Part shown: positions 12,883 through 53,996 of the stretch, one piece after another
Numbering within the stretch: position 1 is the stretch's first letter
Layout of the letters: the number at the start of each line of letters is the position of its first letter
Source of the DNA: Cymbomonas tetramitiformis
Taxonomy: Eukaryota; Chlorophyta; Pyramimonadophyceae; Pyramimonadales; Pyramimonadaceae
Direction of reading: 5' to 3'
Assembly: GCA_001247695.2 (NCBI GenBank)
Contig: LGRX02035338.1
Location: 1 to 64,000, forward strand
Length of the DNA stretch: 64,000 bases
Made by a program: the position numbers and the translations under genes
The notes under the pieces: generated by a model
Database searches by the model: none
Told to the model about the DNA's origin: nothing
Seen by the model: the letters and a program-made list of their open reading frames with translations, nothing else

Positions 12883-12883
12883 T

Positions 12884-18800: not shown

Positions 18801-18882
18801 GGAGCTCTTCAAAACTGAACTGCGGAGTCTCGGGATAGTCGACAACAAAAGCCCAACTAGCCGACTGGTGTGTGGTCCTCAC

Positions 18883-33976: not shown

Positions 33977-34401
33977 CCGTGACAAATAGACCAAACCCTA
34001 ATGTGATATATATATACATCCCGGCACACCCGCCCCCTCCACCGCTGTATTGGGATGCCCCACCGTCGCCGGACTATTCACCGGGCCCTACTACAGACGA
34101 GGAGGACGGGGAAGATCCCTCGCACGACGATCGAGACTTTTCAGATTTCTTCTGTGGCTCTACGAATGATTCAACCACGGCATCGACAGCTTCAATTCAC
34201 GGCACTATGACTGTGCTGCGGGCTGGCACAGCAGTGCCACCGCCAACTAGTGGGGTAGTGGCTAGTAAGTTAATCATGCCGCTCCTGTACAGTGAGATTG
34301 ACCGTAGCTGTATGTGCAGAGGGGTCCGATCACGGACCGATTTCAGATTTTCAACTCTTGACTGGGAACAGCCCTGCCAGAAAGGACAGGCCTTCCCTTA
34401 A
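33970..34401 (+). CDS. RE-B acidic, proline-rich frame of unknown role
   Basis: A 143-residue frame with a Pro-rich start (HPPPPPLYWDAPPSPDY) and an acidic DEEDGEDPSHDDRDFSDFF segment. It overlaps the stop of the preceding frame by a few bases, as retroelement frames often do. It may be a linker between gag and protease. No catalytic motif is seen, and protease should follow but is absent. Confidence 0.35.
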   Translation: MKPVTNRPNPNVIYIYIPAHPPPPPLYWDAPPSPDYSPGPTTDEEDGEDPSHDDRDFSDFFCGSTNDSTTASTASIHGTMTVLRAGTAVPPPTSGVVASKLIMPLLYSEIDRSCMCRGVRSRTDFRFSTLDWEQPCQKGQAFP

Positions 34402-34640
34402 AACTCACTTTCCACCGCTATAGATGGTGTTTGTTCACAGGTTTCAACTTCGGCTGGTCGGTCACCACACTAGGTGGTGTGTTGGAATAGTCACACCGCT
34501 CACTTATGTGACTCTTCCCGTAGTAGTGTTTATGACTGTCACCCGAACCTGAACCCTAACTGTTTATGCCCGTTATATCGGGTGAACTTATCAACTTTAT
34601 TACATTCTGAGAAAACCTATCACTGAGTGAATATATCCCG
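34402..34640. other. Non-coding junction where RE-B protease and RT should be
   Basis: No frame continues here. The next coding sequence already starts at the RNase H boundary, so protease and RT are missing. I saw no TIR or LTR in this stretch; a deletion with or without filler DNA is the simplest reading. Confidence 0.5.
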
Positions 34641-34644
34641 GGTC

Positions 34645-35506
34645 CTAGGGGTATATCCAACACTCTGCTCGGGGAGGTGTTTGAAGCCCATCGACTACAG
34701 CAAGCCCATCTTCCTCTACACGGACTGGAGCAACCATGGCATTGGCGCAGTGTTGGGCCAAAAGGATGAGCAAGGCGTGGAGCACGTCTACGTGGTGATC
34801 AGCCGCTCGCTGTCGAAAACTGAGAGACAGTATGCGAGCTTTCAGGGTGCAGATGCTGGCAGTGGTGTGGGCAATCCGCACTCTGCGCCAATATCTGCAT
34901 GGGGTGCACTTCACGCTGGTCACCGACCACTCACCGCTCACGACCCTCATGGAGAAAGGGGACCTGCAGGGTCAACACCTGCGCTGGGCCATCAGTCTGC
35001 AAGAGTTTGAGTTCACGGTCCAGTATCGACCAGGGCCAAAGAATGAGAACGCGGACGTGCCTTCCAGGTACCCGCTGCCCAGCACAGCAGACGAGACTGG
35101 TGCCCGCCTGGACCGGGAAGGTGACTGTGCGCGGGAAGCGGGGTGCGCCGAGAGGCAGACGCGTTGTTTCGCAGACACCATCTGCTTAGAGGTGACCAGG
35201 GAGCCACCGCTTGGCCCAGAAGCGAGCCCAGAGGCTCAAGTGGCCAACTACTGTGAGAAGATGGTCAGGGAGCAGCTGGGGACCAGTGCGGTCCACCGAC
35301 TGTTTGATGTGCACTACCAAGAGGAGTTGGAGTGCAGAAGGGGTGTCATGTTTGATACTGACCACCCAGAGGTGGCCAGATGTTCCGGCAGATTGATGCG
35401 AGTCGCATGGGATGCCCTCAGCCAGGTACAGCCGGTCAGAGGCATGCATTTTGGAGGCTCTCCAGCGGTCTACAGCGACGAGACCATGGAGGTGGCAAGC
35501 TGAGGG
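34645..35506 (+). pseudogene. RE-B RNase H domain and tail
   Basis: KPIFLYTDWSNHGIGAVLGQ (catalytic Asp in TDWS) is followed by SRSLSKTERQYA, then, after a frame change near 34840, LAVVWAIRTLRQYLHG and VTDHSPLTTLMEKG, ending with GPKNENADVPSRYP. This is the standard RNase H and tether pattern of gypsy pol. A second frame change near 35500 leads into the methyltransferase. Both could be single-base decay; neither site has an obvious slippery heptamer. Confidence 0.75.
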
Positions 35507-36894
35507 TGCCTAAGAAGATCGACACGAGGGTGGTCGACAGGAGCTTCTTCCAGGAAGCCAGGGAAGAAGGCGTGGTTTGCTACGAGCCCTGCGGGGGTCT
35601 GTGTGCTGGGTTGGAGATGCTCTTGCGCTGCGGCGTCAAGGTCAACAAGTACCTCTACCAGGACATCTCAGCGTCCAGCCCTACGGTGGCAAGGGCGAGG
35701 TGCATGGCGCTCAGTCGCCGACATCCTGACCTGTTTCACGCAGGGGCGGTTCACCTAGAGCAGCTGCCCAGCAACATCGAGGACACTAGCCTTGTTGACC
35801 TCGTCCAAGCAGGAGCATTGAGTGGAGGGCAGTGGGTCATGGTGTGTGGATATCCATGTCAGGACCTATCACCAGCAGGCAAGCTAGCAGGTTTGGAGGG
35901 CAAGCACAGCAGGCTGTTCTACCAGGCAGTGCGAGTCCTTTCGACGCTGCAACAGCTGCAGCCTCAGCGACCGCCAGCGTACGTGCTGGAGAACGTCTCT
36001 CCACTGTCACACCGAGAGAACTCGAAGATCAGAAAGGAGGTGTTCCCTATCATCAACAGCGTGGTGGGCCAGCCGGTATCCTTTGACGCAGCGCGCGCAG
36101 GATCATATGCGCACCGCCTACGAGCATACTGGAGTAATCTGTTCCAGAACCACCAGTTCAATCTGGTGATGGAGGGGGTGGACAGGCCACCCGACAGATA
36201 CGTGAGTGACATCCTGCAACGAGGCTGGAAGCCGCGCAAGGTAGTCACTCGGGACAGGAAGCCCCACTACGCCGCTAACGTCGTGGGAGAACCCATGCGG
36301 GTGCTGCCAACCATCTTGGCGACGCAGAACTCCGGAGCCTTTCGTGCACCTCGTGCAGGTACGGTGGTAAGAAGGAAAGATGACGTTGAGGAGAAAGGGG
36401 AGACCAGAGAGGTCAACCTGGACGAGAAGGCCATTGCCATGGGGTACAGCGCAAGTGAATTGCGCATGGCTCGGGGCATGAAAGATGAGGAGTTGGCAGG
36501 GATACTCGGTCTCGCCATGGATCGCAGGGCCATGGAGCTGCTGTATGCAGTGGCGGAGGTCAGTACGACCAAGCTGCCAAAGAGTCAGGAGAGTGAGGAG
36601 GAGGAGCATGGCGCGCTAGCTGCCATCCCCATCGTGGGGTCCGCCAAGGTGACAACCGCTTCGGAGTTGGCACCGGAGCCGGCGCAAGCGCAGCTGGCAG
36701 AGTGGGTCACCAGATCCAGTGACTACACTCAGCAAGTTGCCCGACGCCTTAGTCACCAGGACTGGGAGGAGCGACTGCAACACATGTGCAGCCAAGGGCA
36801 GAAAGGCATGCAAGGTGCAAGGACTCGGCACAGCGGATGCAGTCCCACGTCGCCGACAATGGAAGCTTGCCTCCATGGAGCTCGCGGGCTGTAA
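35507..36894 (+). pseudogene. RE-B DNMT3-like C5-cytosine methyltransferase
   Basis: The motifs are in canonical order: I, EPCGGLCAGLEMLLRCG near 35584 (SAM binding), with VNKYLYQDIS after it; IV, GYPCQDLSPAG near 35850 with the catalytic Cys; then GLEGKHSRLFYQAVRVL; VI, YVLENVSPL near 35985; VIII, AHRLRAYWSNLF near 36110; and a C-terminal helix LGLAMDRRAMELLYAV like motif X. The spacing and the G-x(4)-GRLF and AHR-x-R-x-x-W-x-NL blocks resemble DNMT3 rather than DNMT1 or Dcm. All key residues are present. It sits between RNase H and integrase as part of pol. The frame overlaps the integrase frame at 36719-36894, so expression as one polyprotein would need a frameshift or a repair. Confidence 0.82.
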
Positions 36895-38597
36895 GGCGCG
36901 TCACCACCAAGCCTTCTCAAGGCCTGGAGACAAACCTGTGGAAGTGAACTCAGCGCCAGAATGGGCACCAGTGGCGAAGAAGGAAAAAGAAATGAGGTTG
37001 CCCAGGCTGCCAGACACGACAAGACTGGTCGCCATGGTGGCTAGTGTGACACATCAAGAGTCACTTCGGGAGAAGTACCCGGACATACACGAGGACAAAC
37101 TATGCCTCGCGTGGATGAAGACTGGAGAGAACTCGAAGGTCCCCAAGGAGGAGTATCACAGAGTCAGGAAGAGGGCGGCTCGTCACCGGTGGGACGAGCT
37201 CATGGGTGAGCTGTACATGGTCACCATCAGCGGCAAGGAGCTTCTGGTACCCAAGCCCTGTGACAGGATTCAGCTGGTGCGTGAGTACCACGAGAGGACT
37301 GGCCATTGGGGCATCAGGCGGACGTTGAACCTGTTGTGGCAACGCCATTACTGGGTGGGCATGAAACAAGATGCCAGAGCAGTGATCACACAATGTGAAA
37401 CCTGCCAGAGGGTGAAGACGCACTACGCGCGGGAGGAGGCGATGCTCACTCCGCTGGAGATCAAATCCTTCATGTATCGCTGGTCCCTGGACTTGGCTTG
37501 GCCCACGAAACGCGTCACTAAGGCTGGGGACCAACGCGTCTTGGTCATGACCGAACATTACACGCGTTTCATTATGTGCGTTCCGATTCCCAACAAGGAA
37601 GCCTCCACCGTCGCCAGCGCGTTTCGCAGCCACGTCCTGTCTGTGTTTGGGGCGCCAGCGGAATGCCTCGTGGATGGGGGTACTGAATTTGAGGGTGAGT
37701 TCGCTGCACTAAGCAGACAGTGTCTCGTCGACCGGAGAGTGACCTCGCCGAGTTCCCCAGAGAGCAACGGCCTGACCGAGCGTGTGGTGCGCACCATCAA
37801 GTTTTGCTTCAAGAAGATGGCCCTCGACAAGGGCCTGGACTTCGAGTGGGACGAGATGCTCTGGTCACTTGTACTCAGTTACAACGCAGCCAAGCAGCAG
37901 TCGACTGGGGTTGCGCCGTTCACGCTGCTGTTCGCCCAGGAAGCTACTGTACCACCAGATCTTCGTGCGCGACCCGAGCTGGACTTTGAAAGGCAGGACG
38001 AACAAACTCTGGCTGAGGATTTGTTGCAGCGAGCGGCTATCGTGAAGAAGCTCATGGTGCACGCAGGATGCAACTTGGAAATCGCTCAACACCGTGACAC
38101 CTTGCTGTACGAACACAGGAGGAGTGGCAGCTACGAGCCAAAGCCGCACCAGTTCAAGGCGGGTGACTTCGTGTACATAAGACAACAACCACGCTCTGGC
38201 ATGGAGGTAGCCACCAAGCCAGCCATTCTGAAGTTGGTCAAGGTGCAGAAGGATGGGGTGGTGGTCTTGGAAGACAGCACCAAGTTGCGGGAGAAGAGTA
38301 CGGTACAAAACATTGCGCCGTGCCACCTGCAGGTGAAAGACCAATATGACTGCAGCGCAGCCATCCCCAGCAAACATCTCGCGTGTGAGAGGTGCATGAG
38401 GACAGATGGAGAGGCATCGATGCTGTTGTGTGATACATGTAATCGTGGCTATCACATTTGGTGTCTGGAGCCGGCACTGGACAAAGTGCCTGAAGGAGAT
38501 TGGCAATGCCCCAAATGCTTGGGTGTGGCTATGGTGGCAGCCTCCGCCGAGGTGAGCGCGTATATCGTGGAAAGAATGGCTGCCATGGAACTGCAGC
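36719..38597 (+). pseudogene. RE-B integrase with PHD finger, interrupted by RE-A2
   Basis: The integrase zinc finger is EYHERTGHWGIRR...CETCQRVK (37283-37415). Catalytic residues follow in WSLDLAW (37488), CLVDGGTEF (37669) and SPESNGLTERVV (37756), the D, D, E triad. A GPY/F-like C-terminal region leads to a PHD finger at 38384-38520: C-x2-C-x11-C-x2-C-x4-H-x2-C, then WQCPKC. PHD fingers read histone H3 tails and are an alternative to the chromodomain. Translation runs on to MAAMELQ, where RE-A2 entered; the same frame resumes at 52438. Confidence 0.85.
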
Positions 38598-39289
38598 TGT
38601 GCCTGGGGCACTACGACAGATGCTCGGAAATATGTTTTTGATTGAACGTGCAAAGGTACACAATTCGGATTTTATAATATACTGGATCAGGGCCAGATTG
38701 AGGTACAAACGATAATTCGGTTCCGAGTTCTGAAGCCTAAACACTTCTCAAGTGCTCTACTTATTCACTCGTCACTCAGGTTGCAGGGTCAACCACTCGA
38801 GAGCCGATGTCACACTTCGGCTCAACGTTCAGTTCCCGATCCGATCTCATTTCTAATTCCGATTCATCATTCTCGATTCAGATGTTATGCCGACAGGCTG
38901 ACACGATGACTGCCCCACAGTACTGTCATACTACTGTACTGTCATACTGTCATACTGTCATAGCGTCATACTGTCATACTGTCATAACCTTAATATCTGA
39001 TATTCGATTTCATTGCCTTTTCAACCCCGATGCGAATCTGACCATTCTTCGAGGGTCTGACTGAGTTCCACGATGACACCCCCCACAGTACTGTCATACT
39101 ACTATAGTGTCATAGTGTCATACTGTCATAGTGTCATAGTGTCATACTGTCATACCCCGGACATCTGGTATTCATTCTCATCGTGATTTCAAGCCCAATT
39201 TCACTGTCATCGTGCCAATCCCAGATTACCCCCGATGACACACATACGGACGCATAGGCATATCGGCTCACGCTGTGCCTCCGGGCACA
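38598..39289 (-). repeat. 3' LTR of RE-A2 (692 bp)
   Basis: On the plus strand it begins TGTGCCTGGGGCAC and ends GCCTCCGGGCACA. It contains arrays of GTCATACTGTCAT-type units at 38920-38990 and 39085-39165. Confidence 0.95.
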
Positions 39290-39290
39290 A

Positions 39291-39303
39291 CTCTCCCCCC
39301 CTT
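39291..39303 (-). other. Polypurine tract of RE-A2
   Basis: Minus-strand purine run next to the 3' LTR, matching the tract in RE-A1. Confidence 0.85.
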
Positions 39304-39477
39304 AGGAGTGGTCTACCTCCTGGGATCACTCCGCTAAGGTACCCATCTAAGTTCCAGTTCTTAGGTTTTCTGGTTCCTTGTTGTTTCCAGTTCTTAGGTT
39401 CTCTGGTCCCTCTTCGAGCATAGTTTGCCTGCCGCTACCAGGGCACCACTTTCAAGAAGAAGGGTGCCACTTGGAAT

Positions 39478-40980
39478 CTAAAGCGGGTCTTCAGTGTCGC
39501 GGAGGCGTAAATGTCGGAAAAGTTGTCGTAGCAGGAGTGCTGGCACGGGATATACACTCGCAGATCGACCTGCTCCAGTCTGCTGCGGGTGAGGTCCAAG
39601 CTGAGCAGTCTCTGGATGAGCACCGGTTGCCCATCTGCACGCACACGGTGTTGAAGTAGTACAGCGTAGCAGGGGCGAGGGTGGTGCTGAGTTCGTCCAT
39701 ATGCAGGTGGGTTTCATGTACTGAGTACCGTACATGCAGTAGGTACACACCAGCGGTGGGGGAAGCTGGCGCATCATAGGGCGAAGCCGTAGCGCGTTAG
39801 GGAAGCGACCTCTGGGGTTTTCCATGAACCAATGTTTTGGCTCCAGGTAGTCAATGATCTGCAATGCTCGTCGTACGATTTTGTCAGCCTGGGGAAGGTC
39901 AGGGGGTCCACCAGTGGTGCGCGCTTGACTGTACTGCCTGCAGGGGGGACTTGCCCAAACAACATCGAAGAATCCAGGCGGGTATTGTCTGTAGTCCCAT
40001 TGCAGGATGTCACACACATGAGTGGGTTGCCAGATATGCCCGGAGTCGAGGGTCACTACTGAAGCGGAGGGGAAGCAATTTAGGAATTCCCTCTCTACTG
40101 AGCCAGTACCGCTGAAAAGTACGAGAATCCTGGGCGTGCGGGTTGTTTTTGCCTGTATTGCCAGCAGCTCTGTCACCAGTGCCAACGACCCATCTTCCAC
40201 ACGCTCTTGGCGTTCCCACGGCAGGGGGATATCATCTTCCATCTGTTCGAGCTGGTCCAGTTCATCGCAGGGATTAGTGATGAGGTGGGCCAGTGTCATT
40301 CCGGCTTGAGCGGAGTGACGGCCACGCTGCTCGCGTCGCCGAGTGGCTTCGTCGCGTACTTGCGCTTCCATGTGAAGTCTCGCTTGCTCGAATTCACGAA
40401 GTTGTTGAAGTGGACTTCCGCGTTCAAGTTTGTCACGCGTCCTCCATTGGTCGTGAGCTTTGGAGTAGCCAGTCCAGCGAACCTTCCACTCTTCCACCTC
40501 CTTTCCTCGAACAGACCGCACTCGACGTGCAAGAATGCGCTCAACGTGTGCTTCCTTCTGACCGTCCACTACCACCTCTTCAGGTACTGCTAGGTGATCG
40601 CGTGCGGCAAAAGCATCTTGTCCGCTGGTGTACGGTTTGAGGCGATGTTGAGCGAACACGTCGTGAATCCGCCAGTGAGGAGGGAGGCGTAGGCGGTAGG
40701 CTACTGGAGCTCCTCTGTCGGCCTCTGGCATGGTCATCTGTACATCGCTGAAGAAGCGTTCGGTCACAGGAACTGGTCCATGCCAGCGCTTGGTCAGTTT
40801 CCTACAGATGGAGCGATCCATCACCTTCTCCGTAAGGTGTTTCGCCTCTATCCAGACCAGATCTCCAACAGCATACTCCCGCTGCCCGTGCCTGCGATCA
40901 AACTGTTCGCGCTGTCGCTGTTGAGCCAGCTCTAACCGCTGTCTGGCGTCCCGCAGCTGCGACGAAAATTTCACAGCCAC
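39478..40980 (-). CDS. RE-A2 pol C-terminus: integrase tail, chromodomain, C5 methyltransferase
   Basis: This frame continues pol after the one-base deletion at 41016/41017. Early residues form the integrase C-terminal region (YAVGDLVWIEAKHLTEKV). The chromodomain is at residues about 140-200 (HVERILARR, WKVRWTGYSKAHDQW). The methyltransferase spans residues about 280-430: LFSGTGSVE (motif I, near 40130), SPPCRQYS (motif IV, catalytic Cys, near 39950), MENPRGRF (motif VI, near 39825). Its last 70 or so residues are in a different frame from RE-A1 because RE-A1 has seven extra bases there, so the true C-terminus is uncertain. Without the upstream deletion it would be fused to the 2017-residue frame. 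Confidence 0.88.
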   Translation of the reverse strand: MAVKFSSQLRDARQRLELAQQRQREQFDRRHGQREYAVGDLVWIEAKHLTEKVMDRSICRKLTKRWHGPVPVTERFFSDVQMTMPEADRGAPVAYRLRLPPHWRIHDVFAQHRLKPYTSGQDAFAARDHLAVPEEVVVDGQKEAHVERILARRVRSVRGKEVEEWKVRWTGYSKAHDQWRTRDKLERGSPLQQLREFEQARLHMEAQVRDEATRRREQRGRHSAQAGMTLAHLITNPCDELDQLEQMEDDIPLPWERQERVEDGSLALVTELLAIQAKTTRTPRILVLFSGTGSVEREFLNCFPSASVVTLDSGHIWQPTHVCDILQWDYRQYPPGFFDVVWASPPCRQYSQARTTGGPPDLPQADKIVRRALQIIDYLEPKHWFMENPRGRFPNALRLRPMMRQLPPPLVCTYCMYGTQYMKPTCIWTNSAPPSPLLRCTTSTPCACRWATGAHPETAQLGPHPQQTGAGRSASVYPVPALLLRQLFRHLRLRDTEDPL

Positions 40981-40994
40981 TTCGTGTGCGGTGC

Positions 40995-43900
40995 CTACTC
41001 CCCCAGTTCGTCGTCCGCGGTGGACTGTGCGGCCTCCAGGAAAAGGTCCAACTGCGACAGCGGCGAGAACCCGAACACCAGTTCAAATGGCGTGAAGCCA
41101 GTAGATTCACTCCTGGAGTCATTGATCGCGAATTCCACGTTAGTGGTGAACAAATCCCAGTCCTCCACATTGGCGTCTACAAAGGACCTGAGCATGTCCT
41201 CAATAACCCTGTTGCTGTGTTCCGCCTGGCCGTCAGACCGAGGGTTGTACGGCGTGGTACGAGCCACTTTCACACCCATCAGTCTCATGAGTTCCTGCCA
41301 GAAAGCATCTTGAAACCGTGGGTCACGATCAGAGACAATCTTCATAGGCGCGCCATGTAAGCGCCACACCGAGTCAAAGTAGATTCTGGCCACCACAGCT
41401 GCGGAGCTGTCGCCGAAGTTCATCGGCACAACGTGGACCATCTTCGTCAGCTTGCAGGTGAAGGCCACGAAAGCATCATTGCCTCTCTCTGATACCGGCA
41501 GGCCGGTGACGAAGTCCACCGCGACATCCTGCCATGGCCTGTTCGGGATGCTGTGAGGGTTTAGCAACCCATCCGGGTAAGTTCCCCGCGGCCTCACTGA
41601 TTGGCACACTGCGCAGGATGCAACCCAGGTGCCCACATCTTCCGCGGCACCACGCCAATAGAAGCGTCGCAGCACCCTCTCCAGAGTCTTGTCTCGCCCA
41701 GTGTGGCCTGAGGACAATGACTCATGAGCATGGCGAATCACTACTTCCCGAAGTGGAGAGTCCTCCCCCAGCACCAACTGATATCTCCCTGCTGCGGTTC
41801 TCCAAACCACTTCTCCCACTAGCCTGAAGTCCTGTAGGCATTGGTGTGGTGCTGCCTTCACTTTCTCTCTTAGTGAACGAAGTGTCCCCTCTCGGGTGTA
41901 CTCCGCCTTCAACGCGCGCAGGAACTTTGAGTCTGACTGCTGGGAGGCTGCGTCTCTGAAGTCTGCCGCCTCACCTGTCCTTATCACAGCGGGGGCTGTT
42001 CGCGGATGCCTCACGCGTGCTGGTTGTGGTTTGGCGGGAGGGGCGTGTACTATCAGAACAGGCCAGCGAAGGTCGAAGGCTCTCCCATCTGGGTTCTCGA
42101 AGAACTGGTTGGGCTCGCCCTTGTCATCGTGAGTAGGGATGACCTCCACAATCTGCATATTGGCCTTTCTGAAAAGTTTGCGCCACGCGGGGAGCTTGGA
42201 CTGGTGATCTGGTAGAACGAATACTGCTGAGGTGTTCTCTGGGTCTGCCTTCCATTCTGCGATATACTTGTTCAAGATCGCCTCCACAGTAATGCACTTG
42301 GAGTTGTATGGAGGGTTACACCAAACCCGAAGGCCCCTCCATTTCTCTGAAAGGCAGTCTGTCCAGAATCTATCCGCCTGTCTGTTGCGGCCGCCAAAGT
42401 CACAACAGGCGTCCACATCGAAGGGTCCAAATTTCTCGGCGTACTTCGAGGAGTACTCTGCTCGGACACGCCAATTCTGTGAGTCCTCTGGGGGAGCCCG
42501 CCGTTTCTGTGGGTGAAGGACCGGGGATGGAGTTGACTGTTGGGGCGCCTGCTGCGGGGTTGGTGAGCTCGTTGGCACCTTCTCAGTGAGCGCCTCCGAT
42601 GCGTCAGCTCGTGACGTAGGCGTTCGCGTCTTCGGTGACGCCAACTGTGGAGGCGCTGGGGTCGTAGAGGCCTTCCCAGCGCGTGACATACTCCTCGTTA
42701 TCCTTATCCGGGGTGGGGCTCTATCAGGGGGTTTGTGTGGAGCTTCTACCGGCTTTGCGCTATCGGCTGCAGGCCATTCAGGCATGTCGAAGTCGAGGTG
42801 ATCCTCCTTCATTCCCTTATAGAGCTTCGGGTTAACAAGAGCGATGGTCTCCCCCATGTCCATGGCCTGTTCCGCCACGGAGAGGGTCTCCACTGCTGAG
42901 AGCCAACAGTCAACAGTCTGGGCCCAGTGGGGATGAGCTGCGGGTGGTGAGCTGGAGAAGTATTCAGACTCCAGCGTTGCCAGGGGGTCTTTCGGTAGAT
43001 CTGAGGTGGGGTCGATCACCCCTGCCTCCTTCAACCCCTCACGCACGTCCTTGTCTTTGAAGTCGGGTCTTCTGGACAGGGCGTCCGGTACCAGCAGCAG
43101 CGCTCCTTTGATGTACTCCATTCTCGGGACTCCCACCTCCACCAGATCCATGTACCAGCGTGCCTGTCTGCGGCTAAGCTCCCTGCCAGGTTCCATCAGC
43201 CATTCAAGGGGGCGGTGATCACCCTGGATGCGGAAGTTGGTGAAGATGAGGTAATGCCGCCAGGTAACGGTGGTACAATGGTGTAGAGCACCTAGCTCAC
43301 GCTCGCCGGTGTGGTAATTCTGCTCGGCGGCTGAGAACTGGCGGCTCTCGTATGCTATCACGCGCAGTCCAAGACCATCTCCATTGTCTTGCATCGGTAC
43401 TCCCCCAAGAGCGATGCCGCTAGCATCCGTCTGTACCACGAAAGGTGCCGTGCCGTCTGCGGCACCCTTAATGTTGGGCAAGGCGAGCACCGGCGCTGAG
43501 GTGAGGGCCTTCTTCAGCTCCTCGAAGGCCCACTGCTGCATGGGACCCCACTCCCAGGGTACGTCCGACTTGGTCAACCGGGTGAGGGGCTGAGCGATCT
43601 CGGAGAAGCAGTGGATGAACCTGCGGTAATACCCCGCCAGGCCCAAGAACTGCCTGACGTGGGTAACCGTTTCCAGCTCGGGCCAGTCCCTCACTGCAGC
43701 CACCTTGTCGTGTTGGGGTCTGCAGCCATCCGCGGAGATACAGTGGCCAAGGAACCGCAAGGATTTCTTCAACAGTTGGCACTTGGACCTCTTGAGGAAG
43801 ACGCCCTTCTCCCTGCATGTCAGGAGCAGTTGCTTGACGTGCTCGTAGTGCTCTGCAGCGGTGTTGCTGAAGACGACCACATCATCGATGAAGATCCGGA

Positions 43901-46900: not shown

Positions 46901-47048
46901 GCAAGCGGGTCCCAGAGGTGAAGGCCACGCTCTTGGGATGGGGGCGTTGGCCCCAAGGGTCTCTGCGTCCTCGGGCGCGTCGGGGTTCCACTGGTTCTGA
47001 CCGCTTCTCCAGGGCGGAGAGGGTCTGATCATCAGGGCAAGACCTCAC
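40995..47048 (-). CDS. RE-A2 pol: protease, RT, RNase H, Dam-like methyltransferase, integrase
   Basis: 2017 residues in one frame, continuous with gag except for the TGA at 47088. Approximate residues: peptide-repeat linker 490-545; aspartic protease LIDSGASDNF 640; RT from about 950 with FIDDVVVFS at 1052; RNase H QTDASG at 1204; Dam-like domain 1520-1670 with FDVDACC at 1542 and NPPY at 1577; integrase zinc finger 1770-1820; catalytic D, D, E near 1839, 1905 and 1941. The frame ends early because one base is missing at 41016/41017 compared with RE-A1. There is no ATG near the start; GTG at 47048 is only where the frame is counted from, and translation probably comes from gag by stop suppression. 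Confidence 0.92.
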   Translation of the reverse strand: MRSCPDDQTLSALEKRSEPVEPRRARGRRDPWGQRPHPKSVAFTSGTRLRRTYRSASAPSPPRDDLSSHPLAGSTPFDEPSLPLDDGPAYTQARIEGRRGRRAPRHRPPTMGNNRGEPRDLRPRPRVVLPLPIYQSNLADPRKRLTAWHWKRDLYSLPLEVAMQKVRRALRKSPEAAKDLVDKMSERVRSRVHSGSRSPKERVNRANQLAERIRIAREPQDRKEGHQRIALWHLLSHDGHQQVPEPSNASSHDLYAAWRELSPAEQQKAIATSSPDSSPGSRLWEKEGARRAAARSSTSLCTLDTEVGTIPGTAGDVGLPGAWCSLHAVHQYKMRKLGPSPLGASPPSSSLAEPTTETTSSHHDDAPATPGGNPEGSSYCSEAEETSAPSSLCFTQQMTTVRTHEADEAPPCLDSHPIAEDPEVMEEESSVNSLCFTQQMAAAGTPEARTDHQSSHQLAHNSPTGSPQHDEDPLTHGSLINSVATHASPTTSGTTHVSPTVSGTTHVSPTTSGTTHVSSTTSDTTHVSPTTSDTTHVSPTSSECTSAGTLLTASADNLVSHPTEDVDLLDEEFYAACRQTLEECREASDNLLPNLKCKSIRTDGGVQWKTDIEGTLAAAHDEEGPLLLVFYATLRGHTVKVLIDSGASDNFISEQSAKRCGLTTRAGSEMRVTLADGSVKITGATAYAKFNTHTTTGTYTENALALRILPLGIQVDVILGGRWLRSHSPVTLGYEGNGSVSFLRKSRSGKIGDRVTITGCSPGKASGDRSPKGTACAGLVDEVFLTPAQLKKYLVYAETQKLRGNDDPEIQPAWLMVAEKSPDDTASAFAATAIDSENAEPAADTEDAEVSPEWTLKFQDFWGEEYKKEMTTALPNIDGLRHDPQDEANINLDPELSKKGPPCQRIYKKSAEELRQLRERVETLMSKGYIRPSSSPYAAPCLMVPKPGNPKELRLVIDYRLLNRQTVKDKYPLPDIQMMFDEMQGAKFFSSFDAVDGFWQVPMAPGDVEKTAFTTQMGSYEWLVMPQGLQNSPSQYQRRMQRALGHLPFVRIFIDDVVVFSNTAAEHYEHVKQLLLTCREKGVFLKRSKCQLLKKSLRFLGHCISADGCRPQHDKVAAVRDWPELETVTHVRQFLGLAGYYRRFIHCFSEIAQPLTRLTKSDVPWEWGPMQQWAFEELKKALTSAPVLALPNIKGAADGTAPFVVQTDASGIALGGVPMQDNGDGLGLRVIAYESRQFSAAEQNYHTGERELGALHHCTTVTWRHYLIFTNFRIQGDHRPLEWLMEPGRELSRRQARWYMDLVEVGVPRMEYIKGALLLVPDALSRRPDFKDKDVREGLKEAGVIDPTSDLPKDPLATLESEYFSSSPPAAHPHWAQTVDCWLSAVETLSVAEQAMDMGETIALVNPKLYKGMKEDHLDFDMPEWPAADSAKPVEAPHKPPDRAPPRIRITRSMSRAGKASTTPAPPQLASPKTRTPTSRADASEALTEKVPTSSPTPQQAPQQSTPSPVLHPQKRRAPPEDSQNWRVRAEYSSKYAEKFGPFDVDACCDFGGRNRQADRFWTDCLSEKWRGLRVWCNPPYNSKCITVEAILNKYIAEWKADPENTSAVFVLPDHQSKLPAWRKLFRKANMQIVEVIPTHDDKGEPNQFFENPDGRAFDLRWPVLIVHAPPAKPQPARVRHPRTAPAVIRTGEAADFRDAASQQSDSKFLRALKAEYTREGTLRSLREKVKAAPHQCLQDFRLVGEVVWRTAAGRYQLVLGEDSPLREVVIRHAHESLSSGHTGRDKTLERVLRRFYWRGAAEDVGTWVASCAVCQSVRPRGTYPDGLLNPHSIPNRPWQDVAVDFVTGLPVSERGNDAFVAFTCKLTKMVHVVPMNFGDSSAAVVARIYFDSVWRLHGAPMKIVSDRDPRFQDAFWQELMRLMGVKVARTTPYNPRSDGQAEHSNRVIEDMLRSFVDANVEDWDLFTTNVEFAINDSRSESTGFTPFELVFGFSPLSQLDLFLEAAQSTADDELGE

Positions 47049-47087
47049 TTCCTCGAAGGGCAGGGTCTGGGGCTGGCCGCCGGCCAG

Positions 47088-47090
47088 TCA
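47088..47090 (-). promoter_or_regulatory. In-frame UGA between RE-A2 gag and pol
   Basis: Identical TGA-CTG context to RE-A1 (814-816), with gag and pol in the same phase (3504 bases between counted starts). Conservation in two copies argues for a functional leaky stop rather than a mutation. Confidence 0.65.
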
Positions 47091-50000
47091 TTCATCGCTC
47101 TCCACCGGGGGAAGGCCGGCGTCACCCTCCACAAGCTCGATGCCCGCAAGGGCCGCCAGGGTCTGGTAGCTCTGCTCGTCCTCACAGGTAGCAAGAGCCA
47201 AGACCTCCTCGGAGAACTCCTCTGGGACGCCATCCACCGAGGAGATGATGTCCTCCTGCTGCTCGATGGCCCAAACGACGGCGGCTACAAACCCAGGGGA
47301 GTTCGCCAGTCGAGCGGGTGCATTGGCCCTCCACTCCTTGAGTTTAGCCTCGTCCGTACAGTTACGGACGATGTGCTCCGCAGAGCCGCAGGCGAAGCAC
47401 CGGCGGACTTTCGGAGCGTCGGGGCGGGAGAGGCCAGGTGGTGGTGGCAAAGGAGTCACTGCCGCGGCGACGGTGGTGGCAGGCCCGTTCTCCAGCATGG
47501 CAAGAGCTGGGCGGCTCGAAGAGGGGGTACGCCTGTAGAAGGGGGTGCGAGGTGGTGGGTTAGCGAAGGAAACAGCACGGGGAGGACGGTCTTGAGAGCG
47601 CCTCTGAGCCGCCTCCGTGTCAATGTCACTCTCCACCTCCTCAGCAACTTCCCGAATCTTCAACAAGGCGTTGTGGGTGCCTGGGATGTCGTCAGCAACG
47701 GCCTTCCTCTCCCACTCTTCTGGTTTGGAGACATCCAAGTGGATGGCTCTCAGGCGCCGCATCACCTTGGGTGCATATTTCAGCCCCCGGCGGTACGTAG
47801 AGAGCATCGACAGGTTGGTCATCTCCACGCAATTGGGGACTCTGCCGGCCAGGAAGTTGACGGAGGCCATGCGGGTCTCCAGTCGCGAGAAATACTCCGC
47901 CGCGGTCTCGTTCACCGCCTGCTTCAGGGCAATGGCCTCGCCGTGTGCGTTCTCCAGGTAGGCCTGCGTCAGAGAGCACACCGCCAGATCGCTGAAGAAC
48001 ACGTCCAGCTCCCCGTAGCGTTGGTGCCAAGCTTGCTCGGACCCAAAGGTCCCCGCCGCGCGCTCCAAGAACTTTCTCTGCTGGTCTTGAAGAGTGTACT
48101 CCTTGAAGCTCCAAAGAAGGCTTGACACACTCGCCTGGTACTCTGATACTGATGGCGTACAACTGGGAGTGGTCAGTGCTTCGATCACGATGGCCTCCTG
48201 GAATACCTTCCGCACCATGTGGGAGTAGTGCTCCAACTGCGTCAGGAGGCCCTCCTTGTCGGCCGATTTTGTGTCGGACGCGGAGCGGGGGAACCTGGTG
48301 ACGCTCTTGACCAGCTTTAGCACCATCTCTTTGGTCTTGTGCTCCAGGCGGACCTCGTCTGGAGATGCTCGCAGGTTAGTGCCCTGCGGCAGACGGACGA
48401 TGCCTGGAACAAAGGGGGTGGCGCTGGGAGAGAGCACGGGGTTCGCAGCGGCGGCAGAGTGAACGGGGTTCGCGGCAGCGGCAAGTGAACGGGGAATGGG
48501 GAAACGGGCAGGAGGTGGTGGTCCCGGGGCATGCGCGGGCGGAGGCGCAGGCGCGGGATTTGTGGGGACTGCGGTCGGAGTGGGCGGTAATGTAGGGGCT
48601 GATGGTGGTGCGGGGAGTGGGAGAGGTGTATGGAAGGGCAGGGGTGTGGATGGTTGTGCGGCCACCACGCTCATGCTCCGGTACCAATCGGAGTTGCTGA
48701 CCTCCGACCACGCGGCGAGCCCGTCCTGATCGAAGTTCTGCATCTCCGACTCCCGCGCAGTAGCAGGGATCCACTCCCACACTGGCTGCCCCATGCTGGT
48801 AGACCGCACATTGGCCGCGGCTGGGTCCCCCATTGCCATATCCATGACCTCGCGGTCGACCATGAGGACCCAGGTCTCCACACGAGGGTTGGTAAGGGGT
48901 AGGGGTGCATGGTGTAGCCGGCCCCCCATGCGCGCATATGCAGTCAGCGGCGCTCCCAGCAGGTGCATGATCCTGAACAAGATGGCGTCGCCCTGCACCC
49001 CAGCCCGGCGGCGTTCGTCCCATGGTAGGGAGACGGTTGCCGCGCCTCGCACCCCAGCTGACTGGTGCACCCACAATGACCCACCATCGTGGGTGACGAA
49101 GAGGGCTCTGACCTCTGGGTACTGAGGGTAGGAGGGCTCTGGTGCGGGATCGTCAGGGGGATCCTGAGGTGGATCACTAGGGGGGCCTGGTGGCGAGTCG
49201 CTTGGACTGGAGTCTCTGGGCTCTGAGTCGGGATTGCCACCGCCGTGCACCACCGTCTCCATCGACTGCCGCCGGCGGGCCACCATCATGTTATGGGGAT
49301 TTGGCCGGCCCTGGGTGGGAGGTTCGGCGGGAGCGGTCTCAGCGGCGGTCTGAGGCACTGGAGGGGTTACGCTGGCGACGGCGTCTGCCTCGTGTAGATG
49401 GTCCGCCGTCAGGCCCTGTGCGCTGCCCTGAGGGTCGCCTGGTGGGGAGGCTCCTGCCGATGCCGTCGCACCAGGCAGCGCGAGTCCTCTCGAGAGCACC
49501 GCGGAGATGTCCAGGGCCTGTACTGCCGCCAGGACTTCTCTGCGAATGTGTTCACTTCGGCTGCTCGCGTCCGAGTCGGAGCCGGACCTGTGGGCGGCCC
49601 TCCGCCTGCGCTCAGCCCGTGCCTGCGTGCTTCGGCTGCCTCTGGTCCCCGTGCTGGTGCGGCTGATGTCCGTACCGGAGTCGGGGTCAGAGTGATCAGG
49701 TGCGTGGCTTGGGCCTGGAAGATGCTTGCCATGTGTCGCAGGGCCCGAAGATGCCCTTCGGGAACGCCGACGCCGGCGAGTCTCTGAGGTTGTCGCCACC
49801 GCGGGAAGGTGACGCACCAAGAGCTGGGTACCGCCCAAGACGTTCTGCTGAACCCCGCTGTCAAGGGGTACCTGCAGAGGGTCCGGCAGGGCCGCGGCGC
49901 CGATGCTGATGAAGTGCTGCAGCGATGAGGGATCCGCGCCTGAGTCATGAAGCGCGGAGGTGGCTGGTGCCAGCTGATGGGGCTGCTGTGGTCGATGTTG

Positions 50001-50510
50001 CGGCTGTTGTGGCGGCTGCGGTTGCTGTTGCTGCTGCTGCTGCTGCTGCTGCTGTTGCTGCTGTAGCTGCTGCTGCTGTAACTGCTGCTGCTGTAACTGC
50101 TGCTGCATCGGTTCCAGTGGCTGCTGTTGAAGCCACTGCTGTTGCTGCTGCTGGTACGCGAGCCACTGCTGCTGCTGCTGTAGCTGTTGTTGGAACGGTG
50201 TGGGATATGCGCCCACGGGGTGATGGGTTCCCAGTGTGAACGGCACTGGTGATACTCCCCCAGCGAGGGGCGCTGATTGGGGCAATACCCAATTGACGCC
50301 GTTCCATACAGCCTGTGCGGGGGTGCCATCCGGCATAGTATAAGGGCGGGGCACCGCTGTGTAGGGCATGGTGGTGCCTGGATGTGGAATGGGGTGAGCG
50401 GAAGCGTAAGCGGCGGGCGATGGGAAGGTGAGGGGCGAGAACAATGGGGGGCGTGACGGCTCTGCACTGACCCCCATGCTGGGAAAGGACTCTGATATAT
50501 GTTGCGACAT
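47088..50510 (-). CDS. RE-A2 gag
   Basis: I place the start at the ATG reading MSQHISESFPSMG (50510), because the further-upstream in-frame codon at 50552 is TTG. The product is about 1140 residues, long for gag. The N-terminal third has a Gln-rich tract from CAG-type repeats (about 50000-50190) and long Pro/Ser/Ala-rich disordered stretches. The centre and C-terminal half include LARAAG-like helical capsid sequence (ETAAEYFSRLETRMAS). A zinc knuckle C-x2-C-x4-H-x4-C lies near 47350-47400. It would assemble the particle and bind the RNA. The Gln tract may vary between copies. The overlapping antisense frames are shadows of the GC-rich repeats. Confidence 0.88.
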   Translation of the reverse strand: MSQHISESFPSMGVSAEPSRPPLFSPLTFPSPAAYASAHPIPHPGTTMPYTAVPRPYTMPDGTPAQAVWNGVNWVLPQSAPLAGGVSPVPFTLGTHHPVGAYPTPFQQQLQQQQQWLAYQQQQQQWLQQQPLEPMQQQLQQQQLQQQQLQQQQQQQQQQQQQQPQPPQQPQHRPQQPHQLAPATSALHDSGADPSSLQHFISIGAAALPDPLQVPLDSGVQQNVLGGTQLLVRHLPAVATTSETRRRRRSRRASSGPATHGKHLPGPSHAPDHSDPDSGTDISRTSTGTRGSRSTQARAERRRRAAHRSGSDSDASSRSEHIRREVLAAVQALDISAVLSRGLALPGATASAGASPPGDPQGSAQGLTADHLHEADAVASVTPPVPQTAAETAPAEPPTQGRPNPHNMMVARRRQSMETVVHGGGNPDSEPRDSSPSDSPPGPPSDPPQDPPDDPAPEPSYPQYPEVRALFVTHDGGSLWVHQSAGVRGAATVSLPWDERRRAGVQGDAILFRIMHLLGAPLTAYARMGGRLHHAPLPLTNPRVETWVLMVDREVMDMAMGDPAAANVRSTSMGQPVWEWIPATARESEMQNFDQDGLAAWSEVSNSDWYRSMSVVAAQPSTPLPFHTPLPLPAPPSAPTLPPTPTAVPTNPAPAPPPAHAPGPPPPARFPIPRSLAAAANPVHSAAAANPVLSPSATPFVPGIVRLPQGTNLRASPDEVRLEHKTKEMVLKLVKSVTRFPRSASDTKSADKEGLLTQLEHYSHMVRKVFQEAIVIEALTTPSCTPSVSEYQASVSSLLWSFKEYTLQDQQRKFLERAAGTFGSEQAWHQRYGELDVFFSDLAVCSLTQAYLENAHGEAIALKQAVNETAAEYFSRLETRMASVNFLAGRVPNCVEMTNLSMLSTYRRGLKYAPKVMRRLRAIHLDVSKPEEWERKAVADDIPGTHNALLKIREVAEEVESDIDTEAAQRRSQDRPPRAVSFANPPPRTPFYRRTPSSSRPALAMLENGPATTVAAAVTPLPPPPGLSRPDAPKVRRCFACGSAEHIVRNCTDEAKLKEWRANAPARLANSPGFVAAVVWAIEQQEDIISSVDGVPEEFSEEVLALATCEDEQSYQTLAALAGIELVEGDAGLPPVESDE

Positions 50511-51741
50511 ACTGGCTGCTGAGCTGATCAGATCGCACACTGGGTGTGGCAAAAGCCACAGGTGAGCAGAAGGTAGGAAGTGCTCGCCTTTATTTATTCA
50601 GTGTCGCTTTCGTGAGGGGGGGAAGGAGGAGGTGAAGGTGTAGGGCTGACTTCTGGAGACGGTGGAGCGTCGGCCAAGGTTTCACCAGGAAGCACCGGTA
50701 TTGCTGGGTGGTAAGGGTCCGGGTAGTTGAAGACAAAACCCGTGAACCCCTGGTAGTACCACTCACGGTAGTGGCGCGCTGGTGGGATAGCCAGGGTGTA
50801 TGCTGTCCAGGCGCTCAGTTGTCTTCCACCTCGTCGTCTGAAGAGGAGGGTGAAGGTGGGAGGGGGCCCTCTGGGGAGTTATCGAAGGCTCCTGCTGGTG
50901 GGAAGGTGGGGTCTGGTTGAAATAACCACTTGAGGGGTCCCTGTTTCCACCACTCTCTTCTGTGCTTTTGTGGGGAAACTGCCATACACTGGCGTACTCA
51001 AAATTTCGCCAGGGCTCCGCGACACAGATTTCAAGTGCCTAAGTATGCAGGCAGAGGTCAAGAAACTGCAACCAGAAAGCTCAGCAAGGTCCCAGAAGGT
51101 AACCGGACTTCGTACACTCCAGAAATATTCCAGCCAGAGAGTAAACCAGAGGTGTCCAGAAACTGTCCAGGAACTGTCCAGAAACCACTAAAAGCGCTGT
51201 TTTGAGTGGCTTTCCCAACTGCTGGTGGCCGTGAGGGCGGTATTGAGGGGTTCTAGGCTGTCCTATGGGGTCTGGGGATAGAGTTTTTGGTGGTGGGGGC
51301 TACTGTGGAAGGTTTTGGGGTAGGCTGAAAACGGGCTAAAACGGCTATTTTGGGCTGTTTTTGGCTGTTTTTCGCCTTTTTAAGGCTCTAGAAAGTGAGT
51401 TATGAGGTTTTCCTGGCTACTATAAACCGGGGAAAGCCTTTAGGGTGCTCCCTGACGGTTGTTTGTAGCCTGGGGCAGACTTGGAGTTTAAGATCGGAAA
51501 ACGAATCTTGACTTTTCTGAGCCTGGTTGGGCCCCCACTGTTAAGGGAACGTTATACTGATGTTTTGTGACTTTTGGGAGCAGTATATGGATTCCTTCTT
51601 TGAAAAAAAATGGCTTTTCTGACGTAAAAGTTGCGCAAAGTTTCCCAAAAGTATGAGTCTCCCCCCGCAGTATAACGGAAGTTACGGTAACGCCGTGGTT
51701 GAACGCGCGGAGGTGTTCAAGTAACGCTCATTGATACCAAT
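50511..51741 (-). other. RE-A2 leader with tRNA primer-binding site
   Basis: A non-coding leader of about 1.2 kb separates the 5' LTR from gag. Adjacent to the LTR, at 51728-51739 on the minus strand, is TTGGTATCAATGAGC, of which TGGTATCA matches the usual initiator tRNA-Met primer site. The rest should contain packaging and leader signals; no long frame is convincing. Confidence 0.75.
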
Positions 51742-52433
51742 TGTGCCTGGGGCACTACGACAGATGCTCGGAAATATGTTTTTGATTGAACGTGCAAAGG
51801 TACACAATTCGGATTTTATAATATACTGGATCAGGGCCAGATTGAGGTACAAACGATAATTCGGTTCCGAGTTCTGAAGGCTAAACACTTCTCAAGTGCT
51901 CTACTTATTCACTCGTCACTCAGGTTGCAGGGTCAACCACTCGAGAGCCGATGTCACACTTCGGCTCAACGTTCAGTTCCCGATCCGATCTCATTTCTAA
52001 TTCCGATTCATCATTCTCGATTCAGATGTTATGCCGACAGGCTGACACGATGACTGCCCCACAGTACTGTCATACTACTGTACTGTCATACTGTCATACT
52101 GTCATAGCGTCATACTGTCATACTGTCATAACCTTAATATCTGATATTCGATTTCATTGTCTTTTCAACCCCGATGCGAATCTGACCATTCTTCGAGGGT
52201 CTGACTGAGTTCCACGATGACACCCCCCACAGTACTGTCATACTACTATAGTGTCATAGTGTCATACTGTCATAGTGTCATAGTGTCATACTGTCATACC
52301 CCGGACATCTGGTATTCATTCTCATCGTGATTTCAAGCCCAATTTCACTGTCATCGTGCCAATCCCAGATTACCCCCGATGACACACATACAGACGCATA
52401 GGCATATCGGCTCACGCTGTGCCTCCGGGCACA
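51742..52433 (-). repeat. 5' LTR of RE-A2 (692 bp)
   Basis: Same ends and length as the 3' LTR; about three base differences were noticed (for example GGC for GCC near 51880 and CAG for CGG near 52391). In the element sense it should hold the promoter. The GTCAT unit arrays are at 52065-52130 and 52230-52300. Confidence 0.95.
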
Positions 52434-52804
52434 GCAGCTGAGAGAGAAATTGGGAGCAGACACGATGTTATTGCCTGCGGACGTGGGCCCACACCGGGCA
52501 GTGAGACCGGGACGTGAACATCCATGGCAGGCGCTTATTACGTCGCGACAGATTGCCAGAAAGGAGGGGACCATGGGGGATCTCCCAGACAGAGTGGCGT
52601 GGGGAAGTCAGGCAGAACTGAGCAGGGTGATCACACACTTGATGCCAGGACATTGGCATGATGGCCACCGCATCATCCTGAGCCGAAAGTGTTCAGAGCA
52701 GCACACTCGTGCGAGGAGCTTACGGAAGGCAGCTACAGTGCAGGCCATGAGCCCGGAGGAGGTGCAGAGGAGGGGGGACGTTACTCAGTTGAACAGAGCC
52801 CAAG
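52434..52804 (+). pseudogene. RE-B polyprotein, segment after RE-A2
   Basis: From CTG at 52438 the integrase-PHD frame continues: LREKLGADTM, then WHDGHRIILSRKCSEQH and MSPEEVQRRGDVTQLN. It is about 120 residues with no recognised fold, probably a linker between PHD and the last methyltransferase-like domain. The frame meets the hAT MITE at 52805 and would stop shortly inside it. Confidence 0.75.
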
Positions 52805-53093
52805 CAGGGTAGAAGTCTTCCCAAATTCTTTACGGCCCGTAAACTATATTTCCGCTGGCCCGCTTTCGGCCAAAAAGGTCAAGGAAGAACAATGCCCGCC
52901 GCAGGCGCGAAATTTTGAAATTAAGTATGGGGGTTTGATAAAAAGTAGCAAAGAATGCCTATATTTTTGGCCGAAGTTTGGCCGGCTCATATTTTTGTGC
53001 GGTCCGGGGGCGAAAGCCCCTTCGGCCCGGTTTCGGCCCGGAGCGAGCTTCTGCGGCCCCGGGCCGGCCCGCCACGGTAAGACTTCTACCCTG
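52805..53093. mobile_element. hAT-type MITE, 289 bp
   Basis: The ends are CAGGGTAGAAGTCTT and AAGACTTCTACCCTG, exact inverted repeats of 15 bp. AGCCCAAG is duplicated at 52797-52804 and 53094-53101. CAGGG termini with an 8-bp duplication are typical of hAT. The interior is GC-rich near the right end with GGCCC runs. It is non-coding. Confidence 0.93.
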
Positions 53094-53101
53094 AGCCCAA
53101 G

Positions 53102-53739
53102 TAAAGATTGCCAGTCAGCTGGACTGGGGCTTGGAACTGGTGATGACGGTTCCTCAAGAAGTTAGACGCCTGGCGCACGAGGTGAGTTGGAAGAAGATCG
53201 TACAGGTCTGGGACCCGTGGGCTGGTACAGGTGTGATTGGCAAGGTGATGGCACTGGAGTGGCCTCACTTGAAGTTCATGAACAACGATTGGAATCCGCA
53301 GTTGAAATGGCCTGAAGCCCTCAATGCACTACAGCCGGGCAACTATCGTGCTTGGAAGGAGAAGTATGGAGTATGTGATGCGGTGATAACCTCACCTTGG
53401 TTCGCCGTACTGGATATTGCATTGCCATTGGCAGTGCTGGCCCGCAGAGTGGTGGCTTGCATTCACGTGCCATCGCACTATATGACAGACATGACAGAGA
53501 GCAGGGCGCAATACTTTCGCAAACTGTGTCATGCTGGACGCTTGCATGTGATTGGACACTTGGAGCATGGGCCCATAGGTAGAAGATGTATGTGGGTGAT
53601 GGTGTTTCAAAACCCTTTGACGCGAGCAAGGATGCTACGAGGAGGAGAAGCCACTGGAGTGGGTATGTTTACTTTCAGCATGGGCAAGTTCGCGCTGGAT
53701 GGTGCTACAACAGAAGATGTTGAACAAGCTCTTATCTAA
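53102..53739 (+). pseudogene. RE-B C-terminal methyltransferase-like domain
   Basis: Continues the polyprotein frame after the MITE (VKIASQLDWGLEL...). Motif I is VWDPWAGTGVIGK (near 53210). The acidic strand end is FMNNDWNP (near 53278), and the motif IV position reads AVITSPWFAVLDIALPLA (near 53385). This is the Rossmann layout of amino-methyltransferases, with SPWF in place of DPPY, NPPY or SPPW. The altered catalytic loop makes activity doubtful, but in family terms it is closest to N6-adenine or N4-cytosine enzymes. About 210 residues, ending ATTEDVEQALI before TAA at 53737-53739. Confidence 0.65.
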
Positions 53740-53774: not shown

Positions 53775-53994
53775 TGTTGATGAGAAAAAGAGCTTGTATA
53801 GGAAGCTAAAGGCAGTTATCAAAAATTTTGAACTTTTGTGTGGTTACAGTAAGAGGTTTACTGCACAGTGACATAAGACAATGTATATAGTACCGAGCTG
53901 GTGTTATGGGGATACTGACAATAAGTAAGACTGTTTGGTAGTAGGACTAGATAGTCGTGCTTCATAAGGACACGTCGTGCATAAGTTCGCGACA
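53775..53994 (+). repeat. 220-bp direct repeat D1 before RE-B 3' LTR
   Basis: TGTTGATGAG...GCGACA, preceded by a purine run (AGATGGGGGA). It is repeated at 54388-54612. One frame reads EKKSLYRKLKAVIKNFELL to FTAQ-stop and is kept in both copies, so the repeat may carry the end of a coding sequence. Confidence 0.75.
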
Positions 53995-53996
53995 GC

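Follow-up and report, generated by a model that had tools for sequence, protein, structure and literature searches.

The 64,000-nucleotide stretch of Cymbomonas tetramitiformis DNA analyzed here (contig LGRX02035338.1, positions 1 to 64,000; hereafter the window) contains a copy of RE-B, a Ty3/gypsy-type retrotransposon of about 15.5 kb that is present in high copy number and was, to judge from its copies, probably active until recently. The Pol polyprotein of RE-B has the order reverse transcriptase (RT), RNase H, C5 DNA methyltransferase (DNMT), rve (DDE-type) integrase, PHD finger, linker, and methyltransferase-like domain, and the combination of split direct repeats with an rve integrase is the most unusual feature of the element. 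The family, its domain order, its joint reading frame, the selection acting on it, its repeats, and its target duplications are directly observed, and from them we infer self-methylation of new RE-B copies as the function of the DNMT. We hold with modest confidence the reading that RE-B is a gypsy-type element whose Pol-borne DNMT would mark the element's own DNA and whose ends would be restored as in DIRS elements.

The boundaries of the window copy lie at 26171-54612. The original prediction, made from the letters of the window, had given 34645-53739 as the extent of the element; we reject those coordinates because the repeats A1 and B1-A2-B2, which define the real span and had been overlooked as split direct repeats, lie outside them. 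The features of the window copy are as follows.

26167..26170: target-site duplication TCAA, left copy, matching 54613-54616
26171..27108, plus strand: terminal repeat A1, split by a 540-bp insert (26527-27066) that resembles a miniature inverted-repeat transposable element (MITE) and is flanked by CTTAAAT copies
32829..33973, plus strand: gag remnant with broken frames, of which 32870-33953 has its counterpart in two other copies, some 8-9 kb upstream of their DNMT
33954..34662: stretch between the gag remnant and RNase H, which in other copies holds several kb including RT
34663..35010, plus strand: RNase H (Pfam), with a frame change near 34840
35488..36816, plus strand: C5 DNA methyltransferase in one stop-free frame, with PCQ, ENV, HRxR, and LGxA in canonical order
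36815..38340, plus strand: integrase, with an H2C2 zinc domain (37262-37420) and rve core (37478-37759)
38384..38518, plus strand: PHD finger, C4HC3 (Pfam, PDB)
38593..38597: target duplication GCAGC of RE-A, left copy (right copy 52434-52438)
38598..52433, minus strand: later insertion of the long terminal repeat (LTR) retrotransposon RE-A, with LTRs 99.6% identical
52439..52804, plus strand: linker of the RE-B open reading frame (ORF), in phase with the integrase-PHD frame
52805..53093: later insertion of a 289-bp hAT-like MITE with terminal inverted repeat CAGGGTAGAAGTCTT and 8-bp duplication AGCCCAAG
53102..53739, plus strand: C-terminal domain with DPWAGTG and SPWF, up to the stop codon, conserved in the family
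53775..53994, plus strand: repeat B1
53995..53996, plus strand: 2-nt joint GC between B1 and A2 (palindrome GACAGCTGTC), identical in 4 other copies
53997..54387, plus strand: repeat A2
54388..54612, plus strand: repeat B2, the right end of the element
54613..54616: target-site duplication TCAA, right copy

Pfam searches found RNase H, C5 methyltransferase, integrase zinc, rve, and PHD domains in that order between 34.6 and 38.6 kb, with E-values of 2.7e-15 for RNase H (PF17917), 1.2e-10 for the C5 methyltransferase (PF00145), 2.4e-16 for the integrase zinc domain, and 4.2e-10 for PHD; the rve core, at 4.1e-7, lies below its curated cut-off. Among PDB sequences, the integrase matches those of Ty3 and PFV. 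The ORF is interrupted by RE-A (GCAGC/GCAGC) and by the MITE (AGCCCAAG/AGCCCAAG); both duplications are exact, and codon phase is kept at both insertion cuts. The integrase-PHD, linker, and C-terminal segments contain zero stops in their shared phase, compared to 2 to 19 in the other two phases. Since the phases agree, the segments are stop-free, and the duplications are exact, a single ORF takes in the integrase, the PHD finger, the linker (52439-52804), and the C-terminal domain (53102-53739); an ORF at 53095-53739 that holds both DPWAGTG and SPWF is indeed present in the window. The uninterrupted layout that had been predicted behind the nested insertions is thus borne out.

The window copy itself is a relic. 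Its reading frame changes near 34840, 35491, and 36816, and its similarity to the 29 other loci that we compared begins at 34663 in 15 of them, at 34669 in 4, and further downstream in 10; upstream of 34663 none of the 29 matches the window, although those loci hold that DNA, which is RT wherever it was read. Because the gag match lies about 8-9 kb upstream of the DNMT elsewhere, several kb including RT have been lost between the gag remnant and RNase H. A search of the window with RE-A pol found no RT, which is weak evidence because the same query also matched none of the pieces upstream of RNase H in other copies. The gag pieces of the window gave no meaningful Pfam match, nor did three ORFs tested in 28721-31645, where broken minus-strand ORFs between A1 and gag look by eye as if they might be a later DNA-transposon insertion.

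To place the window copy within its family, the genome (851.7 Mb in 25,745 contigs) was searched with its domains. Of 4030 candidates for the DNMT, at least 84 were scored as matches, with identities of 84-96% once the window's own sequence is set aside, and the C-terminal domain gave at least 150 of 3200 candidates, 93-97% identical. Among the 150 C-terminal matches listed, 31 lie in open frames of 2395-2402 amino acids (aa) and 54 share one identical bit score, as near-identical copies would, which suggests a recent burst of RE-B. At least 23 contigs are common to both lists, and in 18 of these 23 the DNMT start and the C-terminal start are 3441-3462 bp apart; the remaining five spacings are 3355, 4139, 7819, 17733 (the window), and 17911 bp. 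The original prediction had proposed looking for copies without the DNMT or the C-terminal domain, which would mark them as chance neighbours. That comparison, run in part, found both domains on the same strand in 23 of 23 shared contigs; copies with an integrase and no DNMT were not searched for. Given the shared frame, the many family copies, and the mostly constant spacing from DNMT to C-terminal domain, we reject a chance neighbourhood of these domains.

Individual copies show the same architecture. Ten were sampled as every eighth of the 84 DNMT matches (ranks 2, 10, ... 74), each as a 2.8-kb stretch. PHD finger, linker, and C-terminal domain are present in seven, three of which (L033, L035, and L037) have the C-terminal domain or PHD finger split or shortened; an eighth, L034, has the linker and C-terminal domain in a fetched stretch that begins inside the linker. 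Locus L018 is stop-free over 1443 codons from RT through RNase H and DNMT into integrase (E-values of 1.7e-20 for RVT_1, 3.4e-33 for RNase H, and 7.9e-12 for DNMT), with RT directly upstream of RNase H. The gypsy order of RT, RNase H, and integrase, which the window copy cannot display without RT, is therefore found in RE-B. Other copies thus carry RT, RNase H, DNMT, integrase, PHD finger, and C-terminal domain, and these copies and the Pfam order confirm the layout that had been predicted for the window, namely a second family of gypsy type in which a C5 methyltransferase separates RNase H from integrase and a PHD finger and a further domain come after. By eye only, L048 and L049 contain a gag-like ORF and a DTGA motif, candidates for the gag and aspartic protease expected upstream in a gypsy element. 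Eight ORFs of the upstream pieces had no Pfam match. A separate observation, also by eye, is that L042 and L044 have open frames before RT with long hydrophobic stretches, which are unusual for gypsy Pol.

We measured selection as median pairwise dN/dS (Nei-Gojobori method, own script, pairs with dS > 0.03) among copies picked as stop-free, a choice that lowers the ratio. The median is 0.095 for the DNMT (273 pairs from the 24 of 30 loci that had no stop over 90% of the query), 0.055 for the integrase (9 of 30 loci, 35 pairs), and 0.07 for the linker (6 of 10 copies, 15 pairs). For the C-terminal domain it is 0.034 in 4 of the 10 copies (6 pairs) and 0.049 in 16 copies (119 pairs, largest 0.401), the latter being the window, three earlier loci, and twelve stop-free rows chosen by hand among the 150 listed. 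These low ratios show purifying selection on the DNMT, the integrase, and the C-terminal domain, the last being constrained about as firmly as the integrase.

When the RE-B DNMT was compared to PDB sequences, the first 25 of 52 rows were DNMT3A/3B/3C chains (2.4e-5 to 0.001), followed by DRM (0.002), HaeIII (0.003), and HhaI (0.02). A profile of nine copies gave DNMT3 2e-4, DRM 0.0024, and HhaI 0.006, a narrower gap than with the single sequence. The genome holds 124 PF00145 matches; eight stretches fetched from these are all similarly remote from RE-B, the five nearest scoring 40-48 bits, and no subclass among them stands out as nearest. We take WxNL after HRxR to be reminiscent of DNMT3. A DNMT3-like enzyme, as predicted, is the assignment favoured by these comparisons, with DNMT3 chains leading the PDB ranking on one side and the narrowing gap and the lack of a nearest subclass within the genome on the other. 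The predicted canonical order of C5 motifs holds for PCQ, ENV, HRxR, and LGxA: PCQ, EN, RxR, the E/G of motif IX, and LGxA align with four other DNMTs of the genome, while motif I is placed poorly by the MAFFT alignment. The canonical order led us to reject a rearranged, DRM-type DNMT. A phage origin was likewise rejected as the best reading, since identity to the five phage sequences listed, of 13 matched, is 25-30% and extends over 36-42% of the query. A search of viral contigs yielded nothing useful for the DNMT. Apart from RE-B, the genome contains seven single-ORF DNMT genes of 383-401 aa (contigs C25294, C20845, C8, C6, C2041, C154, and C16883) that are possibly mobile or viral; the one tested, L070 on contig C8, has DNMT3 chains as its best PDB matches (3e-11).

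The PHD finger scores 39.9 bits against a Pfam cut-off of 24, has C4HC3 ligands, and matches CHD4, MLL3, and many other PHD chains in the PDB. In the C-terminal domain, DPWAGTG is unchanged in 15 of 16 copies and SPWF in all 16, and the joint pattern of a motif I-like block followed by a motif IV-like block, a pattern fitted after the sequence had been seen, occurred in 0 of 200000 shuffles. DPxxGTG followed by SPWF resembles the motifs of amino-methyltransferases, and on these motifs the domain may be a second S-adenosylmethionine (AdoMet)-dependent enzyme, probably an exocyclic amino-methyltransferase.

Usual C5 methyltransferases have motif I as FxGxGG, and amino-methyltransferases have the motif xPP(Y/F/W). 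In RE-B, motif I reads YEPCGGLCAG and the C-terminal domain has SPWF; together with the distance of the DNMT from known enzymes (best PDB match 2.4e-5), these departures could mean that neither methyltransferase domain is catalytic and that both persist as structural relics or as modules that bind DNA. We consider this improbable, because the PCQ, ENV, and HRxR residues are invariant in nine aligned copies, DPWAGTG and SPWF are kept as described, and purifying selection on both domains is strong.

The ends of RE-B are organized as A1 - coding - B1 - GC - A2 - B2, with TCAA on both flanks of the window copy. A 356-bp repeat is found at 26171 and 53997 (97.5% identical) and a 220-bp repeat at 53775 and 54388, so that the B1-A2-B2 block occupies 53775-54612. 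Identical LTRs at both ends, the usual gypsy trait, were not found: A1 stands at the left and B1-A2-B2 at the right. In the window copy, A1 and A2 differ at 9 of 356 bases, while B1 and B2 show two length changes besides differing at 6 of 214 aligned bases; the two pairs have diverged alike, as expected if they were copied in one event. Besides the window, 3 of the 10 sampled copies (L035, L038, and L040) have B1-GC-A2-B2 with the identical GC joint and different flanks, and L034 has B1-GC-A2. Left ends were sought in three other copies and found in two, where A1 directly follows ACCA and AGGC, the same four bases that directly follow B2 in those two copies. Target duplications of 4 bp (TCAA, ACCA, and AGGC) are thus present in 3 of 3 copies read at both ends, and no B-like sequence follows A1 in the three copies examined, the window and these two. 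One of these two copies is about 15.5 kb long, and the other, whose C-terminal domain contains an insert, about 15.9 kb.

A2 and B2 together begin with TG and end with CA like one LTR, and in L032 B1 has no A2 behind it, so one might suppose a damaged pair of ordinary LTRs in which the 5' LTR lost its B part and a tail piece of another LTR came to lie before the 3' LTR. This is very improbable given that independent copies with different flanks have the identical layout and 2-nt joint, that in 3 of 3 copies examined the left end is A1 without B, each copy having its own target duplication, and that the A and B pairs are equally diverged. Split direct repeats account better for these ends. In DIRS and Ngaro elements, the internal block of such repeats has been proposed as the template that restores both ends of a truncated transcript; DIRS, Ngaro, and PAT elements are not known to make a target duplication. 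B1-GC-A2 of RE-B reads like joined circle ends, the palindrome GACAGCTGTC with two extra bases, and this circle-like joint fits the end-restoring model.

We propose the following cycle. The RE-B transcript would start in A1 and end in B2, and B1-GC-A2 would serve as the template that restores both of its truncated ends. Because the DNMT is encoded in one polyprotein with RT and integrase, it would travel with the complementary DNA (cDNA), and it may methylate cytosines either in the fresh cDNA or, after integration, in the new copy and the DNA around it. The integrase would then trim the joint and insert the element with a 4-bp duplication, the PHD finger may bind the histone H3 tail and steer the integration complex or methylation, and the C-terminal domain may act as a second AdoMet-dependent enzyme. 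Conceivably, the DNMT instead acts in trans on the host, on competing elements, or on DNA viruses, with the PHD finger serving integration only; the high copy number of RE-B is compatible with this, and PMC6338049 proposes antiviral roles for element-encoded methylases. We regard action in trans as unlikely, since an enzyme inside Pol beside RT and integrase would be carried with the cDNA, and we retain self-methylation as the preferred reading.

Several observations, including the stop-free choice of copies for dN/dS, weigh against the overall reading. Searches of Pfam, NCBIfam, PHROGs, and PDB sequences returned nothing for the C-terminal domain that passed a cut-off or carried a meaningful E-value; one PDB search listed only photosystem chains (E 0.45-1.9), and among viral contigs, phages, and plasmids no match was meaningful (two plasmid matches, E 6 and 7). 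The structure prediction that had been suggested for 53102-53739, run as a single-sequence model, gave a predicted local distance difference test (pLDDT) score of 35, which is useless and too poor for a fold search. Of the predicted second methyltransferase-like domain, the presence and family-wide conservation of DPWAGTG and SPWF stand, and its methyltransferase-like character comes from its motifs. Two of the ten sampled copies (L031 and L036) show no linker or C-terminal domain within the fetched stretch, where insertions are present: in L031 the integrase resumes after the insertion and the stretch ends before the expected PHD finger, and L036 holds DNA resembling RE-A at 66-69%. B1 is the only repeat seen in L032, where no A2 lies in the next 1.2 kb, and in L039, which is near a contig end; in L031, L033, L036, and L037 the fetched 2.8 kb contain none of the repeats. 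Regarding methylation, the observed/expected CpG ratio is 0.70-0.76 in two RE-B pieces versus 0.83-0.85 beside RE-B, with RE-A at 0.75. CpG transitions exceed those at other C sites 1.56-fold in RE-B (120 random pairs, 30 loci), no larger than the excess of about 1.8-fold between two RE-A copies. As this trace is no stronger than in RE-A, self-methylation leaves no trace specific to RE-B, and we rejected CpG decay as proof of it: the depletion is mild and the signal in RE-A equal or larger.

RE-A, two copies of which lie in the window (38598-52433 and 1-13577), is evidently a young, high-copy family; its C-terminal part gave at least 81 scored matches of 11333 candidates in the genome, at 98-100% identity. 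Its RNase H and integrase are separated by a Dam-type adenine methyltransferase domain (PF05869, 1.4e-7; phrog_111, 2.3e-11), a C-terminal C5-type domain comes after a chromodomain (phrog_757, 6.7e-17; PF00145 just under cut-off), and its integrase is 25.6% identical to that of RE-B. Provided that the C-terminal domain of RE-B is what its motifs suggest, two distant gypsy-type families would carry the same two enzyme kinds in swapped places. We offer as a tentative and rather doubtful extension that each family is equipped with one cytosine and one amino (adenine-type) methyltransferase and with a chromatin reader, the two families arranging these as mirror images, that RE-B adds a DIRS-like end-restoring cycle with a DDE-type integrase, and that these elements would put two DNA marks on copies of themselves, reading chromatin to place them.

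Elsewhere in the window, an ORF at 21442-21816 with HSTRKGA and a GGW block looks by eye like a tyrosine recombinase and has no Pfam match. Tandem arrays of about 31-bp units with CACGTGGCTGGCTGA and of about 152-bp units lie at 17600-18830 and 31891-32567. An Rfam search gave nothing useful.

The layout of RE-B had been predicted to be unlike standard gypsy elements, but a precedent exists. KnitGypsy-Dnmt3 of Klebsormidium nitens (de Mendoza et al. 2018, PMC5890265) has a DNMT3 in gypsy Pol, DIRS-like repeats, retained key DNMT residues, and a DNMT Ka/Ks < 0.2. By its description it is the closest published element in kind, sharing with RE-B a DNMT inside gypsy Pol, DIRS-like repeats, and purifying selection on the DNMT. 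The term 'PHD' is absent from the main text of PMC5890265, and the description there, as far as it was available, mentions no second methyltransferase domain or target duplication, unlike RE-B. A literature search, limited in terms and coverage and drawing on partial texts, found no PHD finger in any gypsy Pol and no gypsy element containing two methyltransferases. The PHD finger, the C-terminal methyltransferase-like domain, and the 4-bp duplications are apparently new in RE-B relative to published elements. SymbioDIRS-Dnmt3 and SymbioLINE-Dnmt, as described in the same source, resemble RE-B in having a DNMT fused to or beside RT and in being multi-copy, but they are a DIRS element (tyrosine recombinase) and a LINE, respectively, whereas RE-B is a gypsy element with an rve integrase. 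Ngaro/DIRS elements share the split direct repeats A1-ORFs-B1-A2-B2 and carry a tyrosine recombinase according to PMC8547959, where RE-B instead has an rve/H2C2 integrase and 4-bp duplications. The Ectocarpus chromodomain and Tudor gypsy elements likewise have a chromatin reader after the integrase, which in RE-B is a PHD finger, and the part of PMC12477816 at hand mentions no DNMT for them. An orchid Ty3/gypsy element has also gained a nucleic-acid-marking enzyme, an N6-methyladenosine (m6A) RNA demethylase (PMC9289625), whereas that of RE-B is a DNA methyltransferase. Elements that carry the kind of enzyme used to silence them pose a paradox, described from two lineages in PMC5890265. RE-B, which has many copies in open frames, a putative histone-reading finger, and a further conserved domain, makes the marking of an element's own cDNA, and what is gained by it, testable, and its repeat layout raises the question of how a gypsy-type RT and integrase make and insert DIRS-type ends.

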